DNA of 29,138 nt from a virus, in the IMG/VR virus record IMGVR_UViG_3300030107_005327, positions 1-29,138 of that record; one strand, written 5' to 3'. Positions 714 to 29,138 of the stretch are shown here, piece by piece. Position 1 is the first letter of the stretch. Each line of letters opens with the position of its first letter. The translations under genes were made by a program, and so were the position numbers. The notes under the pieces were generated by a model. That model searched no databases. It was not told where the DNA came from and saw only the letters and a program-made list of their open reading frames with translations.

Positions 714-1099
714 GCGAAGACGCACACGCACGACACGGCATGCTCGCGGAACTGTCAGAACGGGCGCAGGCCTTGCCGGGTTGGCGCTTTGTTACAGGTA
801 TGGCCATCAACAGAAGCGCCGAAGATATATTGCTCGACGTTCCACACAGGCGCATTGTCGAACTAACGGCGGACGGTTTCACCGTTCTGTGTCCAGAGAC
901 AGGCCTACAGGCCCTCACGGGCGTTTACGACCCAGTGGTGGATCTATCTGACCCGGTCACATTTGGATTCTTGCTGGGTCTGTGCAAACGTCTGGACGAC
1001 TACGAATGCGATGTAATCTACGAGCAGTTCGACTGCGGCGATCTGGCGGCTTCCGCGAATGTCATTCTGAACGCTTTCGAGGATGCTTTGCCGTGGTAA
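710..1099 (+). CDS. Acidic protein of unknown function, 129 aa
   Basis: The product (starting MSEDAHARHG) is acidic, with many Asp and Glu residues in its C-terminal half and no recognisable catalytic motif, signal peptide or membrane helix. The start at ATG 710 is preferred for its ATGA overlap with the preceding 22-aa frame; an in-frame ATG at 698 would add four residues and cannot be excluded. The TAA at 1097-1099 overlaps the GTG start of the PAPS-reductase-like gene, so the two are translationally coupled. It may be a partner of that enzyme, but only gene order supports this. Confidence 0.65.
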   Translation: MSEDAHARHGMLAELSERAQALPGWRFVTGMAINRSAEDILLDVPHRRIVELTADGFTVLCPETGLQALTGVYDPVVDLSDPVTFGFLLGLCKRLDDYECDVIYEQFDCGDLAASANVILNAFEDALPW

Positions 1100-2058
1100 A
1101 CACTGACGACTTGAAAGAAAAGATCGGTGAGCGGGTGTTGGTCGTCAGTGTTTCCGGCGGCAAGGATTCCACCGCTACCTGTCTACATCTACAAGAATTG
1201 GGCCTACCCTACCGGGCGATCTTCTTTGATACCGGATGGGAGCACGCGAGCACCTACGATTATTTGAATCAGTACCTACCGAGCAAGATCGGACCTATTA
1301 AACGACTCAGTAGTGAGCCGGAGCTCAAGTCAACTGAGCATGAATCACTCGCCAGAAAGTATGAACAGCGACTTGGGTTTAGGTCACCAATGGTTCGTTG
1401 GACTATCCACAAAGGGATGTTTCCATCTCGCATGTCGAGATGGTGTACTGAGAAGCTGAAAGTTCACACAGCCCGCGACTATTTACAGGGCCTTGATGAT
1501 GAGCCAATTAGCGTTGTAGGCATCAGAGCAGAGGAGAGCAAAGCGCGATCAAAGATGCCAGAGTGGGAGTGGTTCAAAGCAGGTGACTGTGAGATATGGA
1601 GGCCCCTTATAAAGTGGACCACCGAAGATGTGATTGCGATACACAAACGGCACAATGTGTCGCCCAATCCTATGTACCTGGGCAACAATCCAGCAGAGCG
1701 GGTTGGCTGTTATCCATGCATCTTCGCTCGAAAGGATGAGATACGCAGAATTGCGGCGAATGATCCACAGCGTATAGACCTACTTTCTGACCTTGAGAAA
1801 GACATCCATCAGATCAGAGCTCAGAAAGCACAGAGCAAGGGAGAGGATTTGCGAACCCCGACTGGGTGGTTTCAATCTCCAATTGGTGAGATCAATCCAG
1901 CCACCGGCAAACGGTCGGGACTATGCTGGCCGATCAATCGCGTAGTTGAATGGGCGCGCACAAAGCACGGCGGAAGACAGTTTGAATTGTTTGACGCGCT
2001 ACCGGGTGAGCAAGGCTGTGTCCGTTGGGGTATGTGCGACACCAGTCACAAAAATTGA
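1093..2058 (+). CDS. Phosphoadenosine-phosphosulfate reductase family (PP-loop ATPase) protein, 321 aa
   Basis: The PP-loop SGGKDS at residues 21-26 marks an N-type ATP pyrophosphatase that adenylates a substrate, as in PAPS reductase and the DNA-phosphorothioation protein DndC. Other family signatures are RWCTEKLK (Cys118), VVGIRAEES (142-149), WRPLIKWTTEDV (169-180) and GCYPCIF (Cys206, Cys209). Three or more cysteines could hold an iron-sulfur cluster or zinc, as in DndC-like members. GTG 1093 is chosen over ATG 982 because GAGGA (1079-1083) precedes it and it overlaps the upstream stop; the 982 start would lie deep in the previous gene. The real substrate in phages is unsettled: sulfur metabolism of the host or DNA/tRNA modification are both possible. 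It ends base-to-base with the last minus-strand gene. Confidence 0.85.
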   Translation: MVNTDDLKEKIGERVLVVSVSGGKDSTATCLHLQELGLPYRAIFFDTGWEHASTYDYLNQYLPSKIGPIKRLSSEPELKSTEHESLARKYEQRLGFRSPMVRWTIHKGMFPSRMSRWCTEKLKVHTARDYLQGLDDEPISVVGIRAEESKARSKMPEWEWFKAGDCEIWRPLIKWTTEDVIAIHKRHNVSPNPMYLGNNPAERVGCYPCIFARKDEIRRIAANDPQRIDLLSDLEKDIHQIRAQKAQSKGEDLRTPTGWFQSPIGEINPATGKRSGLCWPINRVVEWARTKHGGRQFELFDALPGEQGCVRWGMCDTSHKN

Positions 2059-22000: not shown

Positions 22001-23398
22001 CTAAATCACGATCAGCCTACCATGATCTTGTCCATGGTCTGCCTGTAGATATACGTCCGATATGTACGATACAGCATCGTAAGGATGTTTCAGATCGTTA
22101 TTCTCTCCGCGCCAATGTCGTAGCGAGTGTATCAGAGCTGAGCAATCCTGGTGCACAAAGAAGCGACCATCCAGAGCTGCAGCATTCAACATTCGAGCTC
22201 TTGCCTTGATGCTGCCCCTGCCCTTGTACGGTACGCGGATAGAGAACGGCGCACGGCTACTCTTGACCAGATCCGCAAATGCACGTTCGAGCATATCGTT
22301 TACTGATAGACCCAACCCCATGCGGCCAGCGCTATTGCTGTCGCCCCTGGCGTGTTCTATGTGCTGAAGCTGTACGCCCCACTTCGCACACATAGCAGCT
22401 ACAGCTATTGCTTCTTCCTTTGGCGTGTTGCGTTCTTTGCTCATCACCTCACCCAAGACGAAGAGCCGATCCCTACTCATGGCCACCAAGTAACACACAG
22501 AGGATCCCGGCCGCTCTCCGTGGTCCCATCCAAGACCCACCGACTCTACCTGCTTCGGCGCTGCATCATCATCAAACACACAGGCCTCTGTAAACCCAGG
22601 GATCCACCGCTCAGCTGAGACGCCTACCCACTTGGCTAATACCCGCTGTTGATACTCCCAGGGTCCATAGCTGGCGATCTGTGCTTCGATGTCTTTCGGC
22701 GTTCTGTGTGGGCAGTTCTCCGGAGATAGAATGATCCGTTGAATGTCCCAGGGTTCGCGAGGGTCTTCCCCTGTCTGCGGGTTGCCTTCTGTGTGGTCCC
22801 GCAACCAATCCACCGGCCGCCCTATTGGTGTGAAGCCCATAAGGCATGGCCCACCCTTGACCGCGAGACGACTACGAGCTTCAGAGAAGTGCGCCTGCTT
22901 TGGTACCTCATCGAAGAGCAGCCAATCAATGGTAGCACCCGACAAAGCTATCAGCTCTTGGGTACCACTCTTGCCGACTATCAACGCGCCGTGTTTGGTG
23001 CGTACCATCTTCGAGCCCATGAACGTATAGCCGCGTGCATCGTCATACTTGCACCGCTCATCAAGCACACCCGGCGGCTCTATCTCTCGCATCTTGCGCG
23101 ATATGTTCGGCCAGCCAGCTCGAAGGTCTGCGCACACAATCCAACCCAGCGAACCCGGACCGGGCGACGGTCTGAACGGGTGACGACCCAAAGACAGCCA
23201 CCAAGCCTCCGCTGCGATAATCCGACTCTTGCCGATCTGATTGCCCCCAATGGCTAAGCGCCTGTCGTGCTGTGACGCGTGCACCTCTCTCTGAGCTGGT
23301 GACATGCCACCCTGTCCCGGCTGTGCGTGCTCGTAGGTATACAGCGGGTCGTTTGCTATCTGCTCAGCTACTCGCGCAATCAACGATAGGTCAAACAT
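22001..23398 (-). CDS. terL: Terminase large subunit, 465 aa
   Basis: This is the ATP-driven packaging motor with nuclease. The Walker A motif GGNQIGKS is at residues 51-58, the Walker B site WLLFDE at 159-164 (Asp163, Glu164), and the GFTPIGR coupling motif at 188-194. The C-terminal RNase H-like nuclease has Asp292 in LGWDHG, the RGDSNSAGR segment (about 353-361) and HPYDAVSY (about 438-445). All metal-binding acidic positions are present. ATG 23398 is preferred because it overlaps the TerS stop as TGATG; a GTG one codon earlier is possible. TerS lies immediately upstream. Confidence 0.95.
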   Translation of the reverse strand: MFDLSLIARVAEQIANDPLYTYEHAQPGQGGMSPAQREVHASQHDRRLAIGGNQIGKSRIIAAEAWWLSLGRHPFRPSPGPGSLGWIVCADLRAGWPNISRKMREIEPPGVLDERCKYDDARGYTFMGSKMVRTKHGALIVGKSGTQELIALSGATIDWLLFDEVPKQAHFSEARSRLAVKGGPCLMGFTPIGRPVDWLRDHTEGNPQTGEDPREPWDIQRIILSPENCPHRTPKDIEAQIASYGPWEYQQRVLAKWVGVSAERWIPGFTEACVFDDDAAPKQVESVGLGWDHGERPGSSVCYLVAMSRDRLFVLGEVMSKERNTPKEEAIAVAAMCAKWGVQLQHIEHARGDSNSAGRMGLGLSVNDMLERAFADLVKSSRAPFSIRVPYKGRGSIKARARMLNAAALDGRFFVHQDCSALIHSLRHWRGENNDLKHPYDAVSYISDVYLQADHGQDHGRLIVI

Positions 23399-23862
23399 CA
23401 CTTAGCGTTGCTGGCGTTCTTCAAGTTAAGCGCTGCGAGAATCAAGTCCTCTGGGAGCTGAGAGACATGCTCTATCACCATCGCCCGCCCATCTTCGGCC
23501 GTGGGGTCGACCACTTCCATTTCGGGCTCTTGGCGGGTTTCTACCTGCACGGATGCCTGCCGCTGGTATTTGTGCCGCCGTTCGAGCATCCAGGCCGCCG
23601 CTTGCCATGAGCCGTCGTTCGCTGCGTCATCAATAACCAGTAGACATCTTGCGGCATTGTCTGCCTCTGCGGCTTTTACTGCCTGTGAAAACTGTGCATA
23701 GCATTTGTCGGCATCTGGACGAATAGCGTGGTTCAACCAAGTATAAAACGTCTTCTCAGATATACCACCATACTGCGCGGCGAGCTCGTGAGTCATGCCT
23801 ATACGTAGCCCCTCGGCAACGCGAGCAATCGTCTTTGGTGTGCATTTGGTCTTTCTGCCCAT
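23398..23862 (-). CDS. terS: Terminase small subunit, 154 aa
   Basis: The N-terminal 50 residues form a helix-turn-helix domain (TIARVAEGLRIGMTHELAAQYGGISEKTFYTWLNHA) that recognises the packaging site. The middle section (YAQFSQAVKAAEADNAARCLLVIDDAANDGSWQAAAWMLERRHKYQ) is the conserved oligomerisation region of phage TerS, with the A-A-x-W-x-L-E-R-R signature. The C-terminus is acidic and ends EDLILAALNLKNASNAK. It is directly upstream of TerL. The packaging site is not visible but, by analogy, may lie near or within this gene. Confidence 0.9.
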   Translation of the reverse strand: MGRKTKCTPKTIARVAEGLRIGMTHELAAQYGGISEKTFYTWLNHAIRPDADKCYAQFSQAVKAAEADNAARCLLVIDDAANDGSWQAAAWMLERRHKYQRQASVQVETRQEPEMEVVDPTAEDGRAMVIEHVSQLPEDLILAALNLKNASNAK

Positions 23863-23874
23863 CTTTCGCCATGG

Positions 23875-24441
23875 TTAGCGGATATGCCGGAACCCCGACG
23901 ATCCAAGGTTAGCACGTTGGCGGCTGTTGCGTGCCTCTATTTGTTCTGGCGTGTATCGTTCGTGTTCTGTCAGGAAAGGCTTATCAAGCGTAGAATGATA
24001 GACGGCGATGGTGTATGGGTCTTCTCTCAGTGCGTCTACGAACGGCTCCCAAGGCTGGTAGGCGCCATTAGATAGCCTAACTCCAGCTGGGCAATTGCAG
24101 GCCGCTGCGTATGTGTTGCAGTGTTGAGCTCTGCCATTCTTGTCGCTTCTGTGGTGTGCTACCTCGACTTGTCCAGAACCAGCGCAACGCTTGCAACCCT
24201 TGGGCTTTTCGGGCTCACCCTGGCTTGGGAATCCTGCGATAATGCCTCTGAGGTTTGCCACATTGGGCGCTCTGGTGTGCTCTGCAATCCACTTCTTACA
24301 GGCCATTATCACTATCTTGTCTGGGTAGTTCTTGAGGCTGTTTACCCATGTCGGATAGTTGTCCTCTGTCCATTTGTCGTGCTTGCTGTAGTTGCTGGCG
24401 ATGCGTTCCAGCATGCGCTGTATCGTTTCATTAGTTGCCAT
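23875..24441 (-). CDS. Zinc-binding helicase-loader-like replication protein, 188 aa
   Basis: The N-terminal 70 residues (IQRMLERIASNYSKHD...YPTWVNSLKNYPDKIVIMACKKWIAEHTRAPNVANLRGII) resemble the helical N-domain of lambda P/G39P-type helicase loaders. The middle contains a DnaJ-like zinc site: CKRCAGSG (Cys83, Cys86) and CNTYAAACNC (Cys108, Cys115, Cys117). It follows the initiator gene with an 11-base overlap, the usual O-P-like arrangement. It probably recruits the host DnaB helicase, since no helicase is encoded in the window. The zinc module could also bind DNA. Exact family not assigned. Confidence 0.65.
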   Translation of the reverse strand: MATNETIQRMLERIASNYSKHDKWTEDNYPTWVNSLKNYPDKIVIMACKKWIAEHTRAPNVANLRGIIAGFPSQGEPEKPKGCKRCAGSGQVEVAHHRSDKNGRAQHCNTYAAACNCPAGVRLSNGAYQPWEPFVDALREDPYTIAVYHSTLDKPFLTEHERYTPEQIEARNSRQRANLGSSGFRHIR

Positions 24442-25321
24442 TGTTTCCCCTGTTGTTGAAGTGAATCACGTTACCATCTGCGTCGAATTGATTCTCATCA
24501 AGATCCAGAATGTCTACGCCGAACGCCGTGTTTTTGTCTGCTTCTATGGTCCATTCTGCGGAGTTGTTGATGAACTGCCCCAAGTGTTTCTTTCTGCAGA
24601 ACGTCGATAGATCGCAGTCGTGGTCTTGCCACCAGCGCGCAGCTCGTGACGTTGTGAACCACTCGTAAGCGTGCAGAACATCTTCCGCCGTTGCGTAGCT
24701 GAGCGCCTCACGCAATGCCCGGTTGATCTCCGGTGTCAGCTTAAGCGCCCTGCTGCCCTTCTTGCGCTTCTTCCTGCGGTCGTTGAGCTCCGCCCACAGT
24801 GCGCGGGTTGCCTCTGTGCCGATGTTCTGCCCTCGTTTTCGGGTCTTCTTTGGCTTCTTTTGTTCTGGTTCTAATGGTGTGTGGTCGGAACTTATTCCGA
24901 CATAATTAAGATCTGTAGGTGTAGTGTAATTGTGTAAATAAGCACGCGCGCGATCGGTGCACTTTTGGTCCGAAACTGGTCCGTTTGTGGTCCGTTTGTG
25001 GTCCGCGCTCGGCTGTAAGTCTTTGGGATTGTTAGGTTTAGGTGGTCCGTTTTGTGTCGCCGCTGGCGGTGCACTTTTGGTCCGTTTTTGGTCCGCCCAT
25101 TGTTCTTTGGCTTCCTGTACAGCGTTCAGCACCGAAGCAGCTCGACGCTTTGACCAGCCCGCCCAAGATGCCAATTGTCGCTGGCTCAATGGCGCTCCAC
25201 GCTGCAGCTTAATCCAAGCATATGCAAAGCCATCGATTGTAGACGCTGGGCCCTCAGCTGTCCTGCGCTCATTGTCTACCTGTTCGATGATTGCTACCGG
25301 TATGGGCTCCCATTGCTTCAT
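24431..25321 (-). CDS. Replication initiator (lambda O-like organisation), 296 aa
   Basis: An N-terminal helix-turn-helix (about residues 44-71, PLSQRQLASWAGWSKRRAASVLNAVQEA) would bind the origin. A disordered, highly charged linker (75-195) contains the peptide echoes of DNA iterons (DQKRTKSAP, DHKRTTNGP, DQKCTDR). The C-terminal domain (about 200-270, AEDVLHAYEWFTTSRAARWWQDHDCDLSTFCRKKHLGQFINNS) is like those of phage initiators that contact the loader. The origin lies within the gene itself, as in lambda. It overlaps RusA upstream and the loader-like gene downstream. It is likely essential for genome replication. Confidence 0.75.
   Translation of the reverse strand: MKQWEPIPVAIIEQVDNERRTAEGPASTIDGFAYAWIKLQRGAPLSQRQLASWAGWSKRRAASVLNAVQEAKEQWADQKRTKSAPPAATQNGPPKPNNPKDLQPSADHKRTTNGPVSDQKCTDRARAYLHNYTTPTDLNYVGISSDHTPLEPEQKKPKKTRKRGQNIGTEATRALWAELNDRRKKRKKGSRALKLTPEINRALREALSYATAEDVLHAYEWFTTSRAARWWQDHDCDLSTFCRKKHLGQFINNSAEWTIEADKNTAFGVDILDLDENQFDADGNVIHFNNRGNNGN
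24895..25095. other. Candidate replication origin: 11-bp-phased iterons plus AT-rich flank
   Basis: GGTCCG occurs at 24967, 24978, 24989 and 25000 (exact 11-bp steps), again at 25044 (44 bp later), and at 25079 and 25090 (11 bp apart). An 18-bp element, CGGTGCACTTTTGGTCCG, is present at both 24955-24972 and 25067-25084. The flank 24895-24945 is comparatively AT-rich (ATAATTAAG, GTAATTGTGTAAATAAG) and could be the unwinding element. Because 11 is not a multiple of three, the repeats are read in different frames in the initiator gene, so selection is at the DNA level. Confidence 0.7.
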
Positions 25322-25788
25322 TCTTCACCGCCGAGTGTGTAGATCCATACCTTGATTTCTGGCGTCTGGTCCTTGTCGCCGTAGACTTTTTGGATGTGCA
25401 CATCTACAAATTGCGCGTCGTTTTCAACGATGTATTTCGCTTTCTCGATGCCATCCTCAATGCTCTTTAGTAGGTTACTCGCATCCGGTTTTGATACGCG
25501 CCAAACGTAGCCACTGGGATCGGCCCGGCGGCACATCCTTTGAGGACGCGCAAACACACAGAGCACATCCAGCTTTACCGGCTCCGGCCCATTAGTCATC
25601 GGCTTCTGTCGTAGCGTAAACGCGCCCGCAATCCATCGCGCTACTGCGCCCTCAAAGTGCCGCGTCTTATCTGGCGTGTACGTCCTCACAGAGCCGTCCC
25701 GGCTTCTAACTGTGCGCGGCCGCTGCTTTGCCTGTGGTGCAATCGGTATCGTGTCGTGATGTCTTAGAACCCAATTAGCACGCAGCAT
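25318..25788 (-). CDS. rusA: RusA-like Holliday junction resolvase, 156 aa
   Basis: The enzyme cuts four-way junctions as a dimer. The family core is KPDASNLLKSIEDGI (residues 100-114) with Asp102 and Asp112, and NDAQFVDVHIQKVYG (123-137) with Asp124. The second aspartate of the classical PDxDN motif is Ser104 here, a substitution to note because the equivalent residue in E. coli RusA (Asp72) is catalytic; other family members also vary here, so activity is plausible but unproven. The N-terminal QRPRTVRS stretch is basic. ATG 25788 has GAGAGG upstream and overlaps the regulator gene; its stop overlaps the initiator ATG. Confidence 0.85.
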   Translation of the reverse strand: MLRANWVLRHHDTIPIAPQAKQRPRTVRSRDGSVRTYTPDKTRHFEGAVARWIAGAFTLRQKPMTNGPEPVKLDVLCVFARPQRMCRRADPSGYVWRVSKPDASNLLKSIEDGIEKAKYIVENDAQFVDVHIQKVYGDKDQTPEIKVWIYTLGGEE

Positions 25789-26047
25789 CTGTCAACCTCT
25801 CCGATGCTTGCGCCGCAAGATACCGCAGCTCCCTTGCTTGGTCTTCTGTGCAGTGTATAGCGCGGATCAAGTGCTCGAATTGTCCGGCCGTTGGTAGCCA
25901 CTCGCCGCGCTCTAATCGCGACAATCTGCCCTGGCTCATTCCTACGACGTGCGCCAATTTCTCACAAACCTGCATCTGTGTAAGCCCGTTGTTCTTTCGT
26001 GTTTCCGCAATGGCTATGCCGATTGCTTTGTAGTTTGCATTATCCAT
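25775..26047 (-). CDS. XRE/Cro-C1-type helix-turn-helix regulator, 90 aa
   Basis: A single DNA-binding domain fills most of the protein: LTQMQVCEKLAHVVGMSQGRLSRLERGEWLPTAGQFEHLIRAIHC (about residues 22-66) with the classical recognition helix SQGRLSRLERGE. It is the first gene of the minus-strand unit, so it would repress its own promoter and the opposing one through the palindrome at 26064-26078. The start at ATG 26047 is chosen for GGGAGG five bases upstream; the frame from 26074 would cross the operator. With no partner repressor seen, it is more like an early-to-late timing switch than a lysogeny repressor. Confidence 0.85.
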   Translation of the reverse strand: MDNANYKAIGIAIAETRKNNGLTQMQVCEKLAHVVGMSQGRLSRLERGEWLPTAGQFEHLIRAIHCTEDQARELRYLAAQASERLTDAAC

Positions 26048-26063
26048 GGGTCCTCCCGTTTGC

Positions 26064-26078
26064 ATGCTTGACAAGCAT
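26064..26078. promoter_or_regulatory. Operator: 15-bp perfect palindrome in the divergent promoter
   Basis: ATGCTTG-A-CAAGCAT has 7-bp arms around one central base. It covers the -35 of the plus-strand promoter and the -10 of the minus-strand promoter, so one bound dimer could block both. The neighbouring XRE-type regulator is the likely ligand. Confidence 0.65.
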
Positions 26079-26121: not shown

Positions 26122-26934
26122 ATGCCAGCAACCAAGAAGACAGATCATCCAGACTTTGCGTCGGCCATTGCTGCAGCTCAGGCGGACATGAGCAACGCCG
26201 TGAAGGACAGCAAAAACCCACACTTTAAAAAAACATACGCCGGTCTGCGTTCAATACGCGACATCGTGGTACCTGCATTTAACAAGCACGGAATAGCGGT
26301 GTTGCAGCCCGTAGATGGTGCCGATGGGTTCATGACGGGGCGCACGTTGCTAATGTGGAAGGACCAAACCCTTGAGATGGGCAATTGTACCCTGCCTATT
26401 GGTGGTGGCCGCAACGCCGCCCAAGATGTCGGAGCCGCTGCAACCTACCTTGCGCGGTATCAATTGCGCGGTGTCGGCGGCATAGCTGTAGAGGACGATG
26501 ACGGCGAAAGCTACAGAGGACCAAGGCCGCAGCAACGCCAGCAAACGGCACCAAGAAAAGCGCCTCCATTTGACGCTGCTATTGTCGCTTCTGATTACGC
26601 GCCTCCATTTGACGCTGCTATTGTCGCTTCTCATTACGCGCCGCCTGCTGCACCATCAAAACCACAACAAAAAAAACCTGTGCTGCAAGGCCCACCAGCA
26701 GTAGACGGCCCGAATTGCCCTAAATGCGGATCTGTTCTTAAAGTGAACATTAATTACCGAGCTTGGCTAAAGACGCTTTCAAACGAAGAACGAAAGCAAC
26801 AAAAGAAAAAGCCTGCGCTGCGTTGTAGTGACTGGAAAAAATGCGAATATACAAAATGGTCAACGGACGAAGCTCAACAGGCGATCGCGGATATTGCATC
26901 TAAGAAGGCATTTGATGATGGGTTGGACAAATGA
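26122..26934 (+). CDS. erf: ERF-family single-strand annealing protein with C-terminal zinc ribbon, 270 aa
   Basis: This recombinase anneals complementary single strands during replication and genome circularisation. The ERF core is clear: NPHFKKTYAGLRSIRDIV (residues 32-49), HGIAVLQPV, and GRNAAQDVGAAATYLARYQLRGVGGIAVEDDDGE (about 96-129). A Pro/Gln-rich linker contains a recent 13-residue duplication. The C-terminus carries CPKCGS and a later CSDWKKC pair, which could bind zinc and DNA. It is the first plus-strand gene, behind a near-consensus promoter and AGGAGG. With RusA on the other strand, it makes a recombination set. Confidence 0.9.
   Translation: MPATKKTDHPDFASAIAAAQADMSNAVKDSKNPHFKKTYAGLRSIRDIVVPAFNKHGIAVLQPVDGADGFMTGRTLLMWKDQTLEMGNCTLPIGGGRNAAQDVGAAATYLARYQLRGVGGIAVEDDDGESYRGPRPQQRQQTAPRKAPPFDAAIVASDYAPPFDAAIVASHYAPPAAPSKPQQKKPVLQGPPAVDGPNCPKCGSVLKVNINYRAWLKTLSNEERKQQKKKPALRCSDWKKCEYTKWSTDEAQQAIADIASKKAFDDGLDK
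26560..26637 (+). repeat. 39-bp tandem duplication in the ERF linker
   Basis: Two copies, 26560-26598 and 26599-26637, differ by one base (GAT versus CAT, Asp versus His). They encode APPFDAAIVASDY and APPFDAAIVASHY. The near-identity shows a recent duplication in the flexible linker. Confidence 0.95.
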
Positions 26935-27236: not shown

Positions 27237-27567
27237 TTACTCACTTTTGCGGAGATTGAAACAACGCGCGAAACACAAAGAGCAACAGAGAGCTCCAAAA
27301 ATAAAGCCAAATAGTGCGCGCTATTTTGTGCTTCTGTATGTCTGCACAGACCCGCCGGGCTCTTGGACGCAGAAAGACATGCTTATCGAGCTTCAAGACT
27401 TAGGCGTACCGAAGAGTACAGCTCAGTATGCGATAGACGGTCTCAACGCGCGCGGACTAATCAAGAAGAACAAAGTGAATCACCTGTCTACAACGCTCTG
27501 GCCTACCTACGCCGGGACACAGGCTATCAAACCGTTTCTACCTGAGAACGGGAGGGTTCAGCTGTGA
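27226..27567 (+). CDS. Winged-helix DNA-binding protein, 113 aa
   Basis: ATG 27226 has AGGAG upstream (27214-27219 region) and is preferred over the longer frame, which would lie inside the preceding gene. The start is basic (LLRRLKQRAKHKEQQRAPKIK). A winged helix follows (WTQKDMLIELQDLGVPKSTAQYAIDGLNARGLIKKNKV), with a wing-like basic strand. It could be a second transcription regulator or a replication accessory. Its TGA overlaps the next start as GTGA. No closer family can be named. Confidence 0.65.
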   Translation: MPVDYSLLRRLKQRAKHKEQQRAPKIKPNSARYFVLLYVCTDPPGSWTQKDMLIELQDLGVPKSTAQYAIDGLNARGLIKKNKVNHLSTTLWPTYAGTQAIKPFLPENGRVQL

Positions 27568-28289
27568 CACAGATACCACTATTGACGGTTCCCGAGCCAG
27601 CGCAGCCAAACAACGTGAAGCTCTACAACGGCAGTATTGATGATCTATTCAAGACTGTTAGAGACGCGCGAATGGTGTTTTGTGACCCTCCTTGGACGTA
27701 CAGCAACAGCGGAGACAAGACAAGAAGCGCAGCAAGCCACTATCCATGCCTGACAATGGCGGACATAGTTGGCCACGTACGGAAGGCCTACAGCTGTGCA
27801 GCTCCAGACGCTTACTTAGTATTGTGGGCAACCTTTCCGCTATTGGCCGAGTGGATGTCAGCAGCAACAGAAGACGCGATAGAATGGCGCTATGTCACTG
27901 GCGGCGCTTGGGCAAAGACGGGACCGCCTGGTAGCGGGTTTCATTGGAGAGGAAACGCGGAGCCGATTTTAATCTATCGCAAGGGTAGGCCTAAGCCGGT
28001 GAACACAAACCTTCTGCGGTCTGTGCACGTCACAGAGCAACACAGAGGCAGAGGCAGCAAGAGCGGAGAAGCGCTCGCGCACAGCGAGAAGCCTATTGCA
28101 TACCAGACAAATATGATTGAAGTATGGAGCTCGCCGGGCGATCTAATTTTGGACATATACGCGGGCCTATGTTCTGTTGGTCGGGCTACGGTTAGAGCTG
28201 GGAAAGGACGAAGGTACATAGGAGCTGAGATCGACCCCGACAGGTACAGGCAGGCGGTAGATCGCTTGGTGTTGGATGGTGGGCGGTGA
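27564..28289 (+). CDS. MT-A70-family adenine-N6 DNA methyltransferase, 241 aa
   Basis: The enzyme moves a methyl group from S-adenosylmethionine to adenine in DNA. The catalytic DPPW motif is at residues 41-44, and the cofactor motif LILDIYAGLCSVGRAT near the C-terminus; this DPPW-first order is normal for MT-A70 types. HSEKP near residue 173 is also typical. GTG 27564 overlaps the preceding stop as GTGA and has GGGAGG upstream. Its own stop overlaps the GTG of the cytosine methylase as GTGA. Two adjacent methylases without a nuclease suggest protection against host restriction or an epigenetic mark. Confidence 0.85.
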   Translation: MTQIPLLTVPEPAQPNNVKLYNGSIDDLFKTVRDARMVFCDPPWTYSNSGDKTRSAASHYPCLTMADIVGHVRKAYSCAAPDAYLVLWATFPLLAEWMSAATEDAIEWRYVTGGAWAKTGPPGSGFHWRGNAEPILIYRKGRPKPVNTNLLRSVHVTEQHRGRGSKSGEALAHSEKPIAYQTNMIEVWSSPGDLILDIYAGLCSVGRATVRAGKGRRYIGAEIDPDRYRQAVDRLVLDGGR

Positions 28290-29138
28290 GAATTGGATCA
28301 CTGTTTAGCGGAATTGGTGGGCTCGAGCTCGGATTAGAGCGCGCAATACCTGGAGCCCACACTGTATGGCAAGTAGAGCAAGACCCATACGCGCGAGCTG
28401 TGCTCGCTAAGCATTGGCCTGATGCGAGGAGATATGAAGATGTCAAAGAATTCAACCGCCAACAGTGGCTTTTTAAAAAGCCAGGACCCGTCGAGATTAT
28501 CTGTGGGGGCTACCCCTGTACAGGGCACTCGCTCGCAGGCAAAAGAAAGGGATTTGACGATCCCCGATCGGGACTGTGGACAGAATACACGAGAATCATT
28601 CGCGAGTTTAGGCCTCGATTCGTCGTGGTTGAAAACGTTTCCGCTCTTAGAAGCCGGGGAATCAGTCGAGTACTCGGAGACCTGGCCGCGTGCGGGTATG
28701 ATGCTGTCTGGGACTGTATACCGGCTCAAGCCGTCCGCGCCCATCATCGCAGGGACCGCATGTTCATTGTCGCATGGACCGAACACCACAGGTCAGTGGC
28801 CGACTCCAGCTGCAACGCTTCACAACTTGAACGAATCTCCAGAGATATTCCTGGATCGACAACAGAAGTGGGCGGAAGAGAAGGGGTATCACAACTCAAT
28901 CCCACTGACCGTAGCTGTAAAGATGTGGCCGACGCCAACTGCGATGCCTGCGGAGAATTATGGTGCAAAAAATGCCAGAGTCACTGGGCGCTGTGTGGAT
29001 GTCCAGGCGAGCACGAGGGAGACGTCATTAACTGCCCAGCAGAGCCTGAAACCGGAGAGCCTGAAACCGGAGAGCCTGAAACCGGAGAGCCTGAAACCGG
29101 AGAGCCTGAAACCGGAGAGCCTGAACCCGACGTGGGTC
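28286..29138 (+). CDS. dcm: DNA cytosine-C5 methyltransferase, N-terminal part (gene split by the contig edge)
   Basis: Motifs run in the standard order: FSGIGG (residues 7-12, cofactor motif I), GGYPCTGHS (motif IV with the catalytic Cys), VVVENV (motif VI) and HHRRDRMFIVA (motif VIII). After motif VIII the target-recognition segment holds a cysteine/histidine cluster (CDACGELWCKKC...CGCPGEHE) likely to bind zinc, followed by EPETG repeats. The reading frame leaves the window at 29138 and resumes through the terminal repeat in 1-281. GTG 28286 overlaps the adenine-methylase stop. Usual Dcm types have PCQ in motif IV; here it is PCT, with the catalytic cysteine kept. Confidence 0.9.
   Translation, partial: MRIGSLFSGIGGLELGLERAIPGAHTVWQVEQDPYARAVLAKHWPDARRYEDVKEFNRQQWLFKKPGPVEIICGGYPCTGHSLAGKRKGFDDPRSGLWTEYTRIIREFRPRFVVVENVSALRSRGISRVLGDLAACGYDAVWDCIPAQAVRAHHRRDRMFIVAWTEHHRSVADSSCNASQLERISRDIPGSTTEVGGREGVSQLNPTDRSCKDVADANCDACGELWCKKCQSHWALCGCPGEHEGDVINCPAEPETGEPETGEPETGEPETGEPETGEPEPDVG
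29022..29138. repeat. Terminal direct repeat, right copy, with five tandem 15-bp units
   Basis: This repeats the left terminus (1-135). Units of GAGCCTGAAACCGGA lie at 29042-29056, 29057-29071, 29072-29086, 29087-29101 and 29102-29116, against three in the left copy. The 48-base segment found at 66-113 is missing. The two versions differ by 18 bases, six codons. Confidence 0.9.

Follow-up and report, generated by a model that had tools for sequence, protein, structure and literature searches.

Short direct repeats phased at 11 bp were found at 24.88–25.10 kb of the window, by which we mean the whole 29,138-nucleotide stretch of the virus record IMGVR_UViG_3300030107_005327, inside a gene for a replisome-organiser-like initiator. 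We regard this array as an intragenic theta-replication origin bound by the initiator that the same gene encodes, with a probability of about 85%; the binding, melting, and helicase loading are modelled on phage SPP1. For the phage of the window, this reading locates the origin and assigns a role to a gene without a match in any family model. Intragenic origins are of a kind already known; of greater interest is that one-turn spacing is common in phage initiator genes of this sort.

The initiator gene (24431–25321, minus strand) encodes a protein of 296 aa with an HTH-like N-domain, a linker whose coding segment contains the array, and a helical C-domain. A sequence scan returned all seven GGTCCG sites listed in the earlier sequence-only reading of this DNA (24967, 24978, 24989, 25000, 25044, 25079, and 25090), all of them within this reading frame, and reproduced the claimed steps of 11, 11, 11, 44, 35, and 11 bp. 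The 18-bp duplicated element reported there is also real (CGGTGCACTTTTGGTCCG at 24955–24972 and again at 25067–25084). Seven is the number of exact sites, but not of all iterons: two degenerate units, GGTGCA at 24956–24961 and 25068–25073, fall in with the 11-bp phase and read exactly CGGACC in some relatives, which brings the array to nine positions.

Read on the gene strand (minus), the array unit is CGGACCANAAA with the core CGGACC. Iterons 1 (25090–25095, gene nt 227) and 2 (25079–25084, nt 238) were exact in 9 of the 10 family sequences compared below. Iteron 3 (25068–25073, nt 249), which is degenerate in the window (TGCACC), was exact CGGACC in two of the ten and had no more than one mismatch in six, and the solitary iteron 4 (25044–25049, nt 273) was exact in seven. 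The main cluster is opened by iteron 5 (25000–25005, nt 317), exact in 9/10, and continues with iterons 6 (24989–24994, nt 328; 9/10), 7 (24978–24983, nt 339; 10/10), 8 (24967–24972, nt 350; 6/10), and 9 (24956–24961, nt 361), the last being TGCACC in the window and exact CGGACC in 3/10.

The GGTCCG hexamer per se was not enriched: 19 copies were present in the window versus 13.1 expected, and 12 of the 19 were scattered. Exact GGTCCG pairs at 11 bp numbered four, whereas 500 Markov shuffles gave 0.006 on average and never more than 1; it is the 11-bp phasing, not the abundance of the hexamer, that is improbable. The top 11-bp self-match of the whole 29-kb window was the array itself (25/33; maximum of 21 in 200 shuffles), and the runner-up was the other iteron cluster. 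Within the initiator gene, self-similarity at lag 11 reached p = 0.005, the lowest value obtainable with the synonymous-codon shuffles used. Gene-strand copies are read in all three frames; thus, a peptide repeat cannot explain the array, and the statement of the sequence-only reading to this effect was right.

Protein searches of IMG/VR yielded eight relatives, seven of them close and one more remote, and an iteron-pattern search added three further homologues. After near-duplicates had been dropped, ten sequences remained for comparison (the window and nine relatives, 54–98% amino acid identity to the window protein). The iterons occupy the same gene positions across all ten, and the 35-bp step was kept, its two sites (gene nt 238 and 273) each differing from CGGACC by no more than one base in 9/10 sequences. 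The DNA repeat and its spacing were accordingly retained in the homologues, not the peptide alone, which is the opposite of the outcome that the sequence-only reading had named as refuting it. Among seven diverged members, synonymous codon identity, counted only at codons encoding the same amino acid, was 0.80 (552/690) in codons 76–126 versus 0.48 on both sides, a comparison given without a p-value because sites inside one family cannot be treated as independent. The conservation of codon choice goes beyond that of the peptide, which indicates selection on the DNA itself. The raised synonymous-codon conservation extends over codons ~61–165 (24826–25141), the probable extent of the cis-acting origin. 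A palindrome, CTGTACAG, was noted at 25115–25122, approximately 20 bp before iteron 1, in codons that most relatives likewise conserve at the synonymous level; it is possibly an extra origin site.

The AT-rich flank described earlier is real. The most AT-rich 60-mer of the gene (24882–24941, gene nt 381–440; 67% AT versus 47% gene-wide) lies about 15 bp past iteron 9 and represents a candidate DNA-unwinding element. At the far end of this tract, a 7-bp perfect inverted repeat, GTCGGAA-N4-TTCCGAC, was located at 24884–24901; it was identical only in L002, some relatives having different ones, and was dropped as a defining part of the origin because it is not conserved, its role being doubtful. 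Cumulative GC skew, proposed earlier as a check, indeed has its minimum near 25–26 kb, but gene direction switches at the same place, and the skew was set aside as origin evidence because of this confounding.

The window initiator belongs to a family that no library names: no family match was found in Pfam, PHROG, or NCBIfam, the PHROG profile scan giving only phrog_21599 at E 0.25 and no match to the DnaD-like profiles 2514 and 186. Homology to lambda O was not evident either, since neither Phage_rep_O (Pfam) nor PHROG 345 matched the initiator up to E 1. The HTH-like segment RGAPLSQRQLASWAGWSKRRAASVLNAVQ (codons ~40–72; 25106–25204, minus strand), presumed to be DNA-binding, aligned weakly with the HTH of the DnaD-like family at the same place (hhalign E 0.014, probability 3%; not significant), and a 35-residue blastp alignment to SPP1 gp38 at the HTH had E 0.11, which is also not significant. 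Neither the initiator nor the loader encoded next to it had a relative among 50,697 phage records searched with tblastn, and a PDB sequence search gave nothing for the initiator family or for the loader. A protein scan of genome contigs returned no match.

The structure of the initiator was predicted with low confidence (mean pLDDT 52), with helices at residues 9–82 and 170–264; Foldseek with this weak model gave nothing at E 0.001 or better, the matches being meaningless. Residues 80–164, with pLDDT below 50, form a predicted disordered linker with abundant D, Q, K, R, T, and P; almost the entire array (residues 76–122) falls within it. We infer from this model that the array sits in a segment coding for a flexible linker, where the peptide may be free enough to satisfy the DNA.

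The initiator is encoded in a leftward operon whose order was kept in most relatives. An HTH regulator stands at its head (25775–26074, minus strand; Pfam HTH_31, 2.2e-9), followed by a RusA-type Holliday-junction resolvase (25318–25788, minus strand; Pfam RusA, 1.5e-20), the initiator, a G39P-like helicase loader, and the small and then the large terminase subunits. The loader (188 aa; 23875–24441, minus strand) is the next gene downstream of the initiator and matched phrog_2289 (helicase loader) with E 5e-5, while its match to Pfam Inhibitor_G39P (E 0.022) was below the cut-off. A replicative helicase of the phage's own was not found after the loader, where the terminase subunits stand instead; hence, the phage presumably uses the helicase of the host. 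The gene for an ERF recombinase is divergently oriented; within it, an in-frame 39-bp tandem duplication was noted (26560–26642, 2.1 copies, 97%) with the repeated peptide FDAAIVAS.

By analogy with SPP1, copies of the 296-aa protein would bind the CGGACC iterons through the HTH-like N-domain, and since the iterons are one helix turn apart, the bound copies would line up along a single DNA face. The complex so formed would strain and open the AT-rich tract just past iteron 9, and the G39P-like loader from the adjacent gene would deliver the replicative helicase, probably that of the host. The repeats, their spacing and DNA-level conservation, the AT-rich flank, and the operon are direct observations. 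The initial proposal of an iteron origin built of DNA-level repeats inside the initiator gene is well supported by the conserved codon choice, the kept sites and spacing, the AT-rich flank, the neighbouring loader, and the SPP1 parallel, whereas binding by the initiator remains, as that proposal itself said, an inference, drawn here from SPP1.

In SPP1, oriL lies inside gene 38: its direct repeats, next to an AT-rich unwinding element, are bound by gp38 at nanomolar affinity, and the helicase is loaded by gp39 (PMC6316719). We analyzed SPP1 gene 38 from the partial record X67865. Its strongest lag was 11, at nt 360 (24/28; p 0.026 against synonymous shuffles); its units, AAACGACACGA for example, precede an AT-rich stretch. 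The SPP1 repeats thus resemble those of the window in occupying almost the same position within the initiator gene (nt ~360 versus 227–366), with the same strongest period of 11 bp, an AT-rich tract on the 3′ side, and a G39P-type loader as the next gene. The two phages differ in the unit itself (AAACGACACGA-like in SPP1, CGGACCANAAA in the window) and in the initiator proteins, which lack significant similarity by blastp (E 0.11). SPP1 has its own helicase gene after the loader, where the window has the terminase small subunit. It also has a second origin, oriR, in contrast to the window, in which no second array was found.

Lambda O, together with O of Stx phages, shares with the window mid-gene iterons, an AT-rich tract on the 3′ side, and a loader gene (P) as the next gene. 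However, the lambda iterons are 18 bp long and 20–24 bp apart (top lags 20, 23, and 24), with another motif and without an 11-bp signal; lambda O has also been described as unrelated to G38P (PMC5499656). The “lambda type” assigned by the sequence-only reading therefore stands for the layout, but not for the spacing, motif, or protein; the closest proven relative, judged by layout, spacing, and gene order, is SPP1 gp38/oriL with the gp39 loader. In staphylococcal phage 80alpha, a 2017 study proposed an origin within ORF20 itself, as in SPP1 gene 38 (PMC5499656). Lag 11 was present in the staphylococcal phages phi575 and StB27. Phage DnaD-like and replication-initiation families (PHROG 2514, 186, 428, and 270) resemble the window protein in having a WxWSxxKV-like HTH, a linker with 11-bp (or 12- and 23-bp) arrays, and an AT-rich tract, whereas the window protein matched none of these four models and is without the DnaD/DnaB_2 C-domain found in some members.

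A search of IMG/VR viral contigs for CGGACCANNNNCGGACCANNNNCGGACC, performed without a protein criterion, returned 26 contigs: the 10 homologues, 9 with divergent initiator-like genes, and 7 others, mostly GC-rich. The nine divergent array-bearing genes have different C-terminal regions, and the array typically follows an HTH with a WxWSxxKV-like motif. Seven of the nine were scanned against PHROG; four matched DnaD-like helicase-loader or replication-initiation families and three matched nothing, the family-less genes including L022, L026, and L032. L023, L027, and L028, which match DnaD-like/replication-initiation PHROGs (among 2514, 186, 428, and 270), carry exactly the same CGGACCA pattern. 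An iteron-pattern scan of genome contigs gave mainly GC-rich chance repeats among the matches listed; among the non-Bacteroidales matches inspected, the sole relevant one was a Paenibacillus prophage gene, and no conclusion was drawn. Also among the matches listed were Paucibacter/Burkholderiales contigs (L042, L054, and L093) with CGGACC 11-bp arrays in short, apparently non-initiator contexts; the flanks of these arrays are near-identical, and the arrays are perhaps a dispersed repeat family.

Because searching with the array pattern is biased toward arrays, later sampling was by protein only. The sources of the spacing survey were named phages, found via tblastn, and 80 IMG/VR loci, found via a peptide pattern. 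Reduction to representatives with less than 60% identity left 48 usable genes, mostly DnaD-like/gp38-like, two of them from the family of the window. For each gene, the best self-match at each lag from 6 to 40 was compared with 200 synonymous-codon shuffles (p floor 0.005). Lag 11 was significant (p ≤ 0.01) in 27 of the 48 initiator genes (56%) and in 0 of 86 neighbouring control ORFs (Fisher p ~1.5e-15), figures to be read with regard to a shuffle that moves codons gene-wide and does not fully preserve local composition, to controls that are less repetitive as proteins, and to a 60% identity limit that leaves some shared ancestry. Lag 22 was significant in 46% and lag 33 in 17% of the initiator genes; other lags were at background, with 0.5% of tests reaching p ≤ 0.01. 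When lags 11, 12, 22, 23, 24, and 33, a set picked after viewing the spectrum, were taken jointly (p 0.02), 46/48 initiator genes passed versus 6/86 controls. The 36 representatives found by protein alone showed lag 11 in 19 cases, and 34 of them passed the joint test.

The arrays start mostly at gene nt ~300–400 across the survey, and the 50-mer of highest AT content within the gene adjoins the 3′ end of the array in 32/46 (15% expected). A weak common unit, roughly NGRAMCRCARA, was found in the arrays whose lag 11 reached p ≤ 0.02 (32 in all); its information was 8.1 bits versus 6.3 (maximum 6.8) after column permutation. Other spacings were 23 bp in Pseudoalteromonas SL25 (L161) and Vibrio 1.167 (L172) and 12 bp in iA2 (L170) and Bacteroides BS-TP2 (L164), and the top lag of Lactococcus TP901-1 rep (L255), annotated as experimentally shown, was 15, not 11; therefore, the 11-bp rule is common but has exceptions. 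The tighter 11-bp iterons pointed out in the sequence-only reading are present, but they are not special to this phage, being common in phage DnaD-like/gp38-like initiator genes.

It is rather probable that HTH/DnaD-like/gp38 replisome organisers generally follow a design rule of one-turn phasing, with ~11-bp units sharing a core of roughly NGRAMCRCARA in the linker-coding segment, which a conserved recognition helix of WxWSxxKV type would read, and then a melting tract. Under such a rule, the DNA coding for the initiator linker would bear a second constraint, that of a binding array phased to the helix turn plus a melting tract, and scattered cases (SPP1 gene 38, lambda O, and the suggestion for 80alpha ORF20) would become a measurable regularity. 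Sequence-based prediction of origins would become feasible in many uncultured phages, and the rule makes the testable claim that the initiators assemble on one DNA face. If the rule is true, sequence alone could suffice to find the origin in a large share of such phages, even when the initiator is family-less, as here. Family-wide one-turn spacing was not found in the open-access literature, to which our search was confined, and no priority is claimed.

Among the alternatives, an autoregulatory operator survives best, although it is improbable: the initiator or the upstream HTH protein would limit transcription of its own operon at the array, without any origin. Arrays of regulator sites can occur inside genes, and with the gene pointing at the loader and the terminase genes, a roadblock could govern how strongly these are expressed; yet an operator leaves the AT-rich tract on the 3′ side of arrays across the family unexplained, and in the SPP1 precedent, the same place is a proven origin. 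An operator role could also exist in addition to the origin. A packaging (pac/cos) site for the nearby terminase small subunit is considerably less probable still. The gene terS (23398–23862) is ~1.1 kb from the array, and terS and terL lie just downstream of it, likewise in many relatives; however, the array was retained in the more distant relatives L014, L015, and L018, in which no terS or terL homologues were detected in the sequence around the initiator, which speaks against a packaging site, and initiator genes bear like arrays also in phages whose gene order differs, SPP1 among them. The idea that the repeat is a by-product of the low-complexity linker peptide or of a recent duplication, with no cis function, agrees with the linker composition and with the 18-bp element, which is a duplication, but is largely refuted by the units lying in three different frames, by the codon choice conserved beyond the peptide, by an 11-bp signal that synonymous shuffles do not reproduce, and by the background level of other lags.

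Outside the origin region, the ends of the window were found to overlap: the first 74 bp recur at 29022–29095, and bases 114–135 match the last 22 (regions 1–135 and 29022–29138). A 15-bp tandem repeat, AGAGCCTGAAACCGG, lies between the matching end segments, with a copy number of 3.7 versus 5.9. The window is probably a complete genome, circularly closing or terminally redundant, which was cut inside the DNA-methyltransferase region. Two adjacent ORFs of DNA-methyltransferase families (phrog_67 and phrog_363) are encoded there (27564–29137, plus strand), the second running off the end of the record. A phosphoadenosine phosphosulfate reductase-like gene (982–2058, plus strand; phrog_424, 2.4e-54), an auxiliary or modification-type gene, was also identified.
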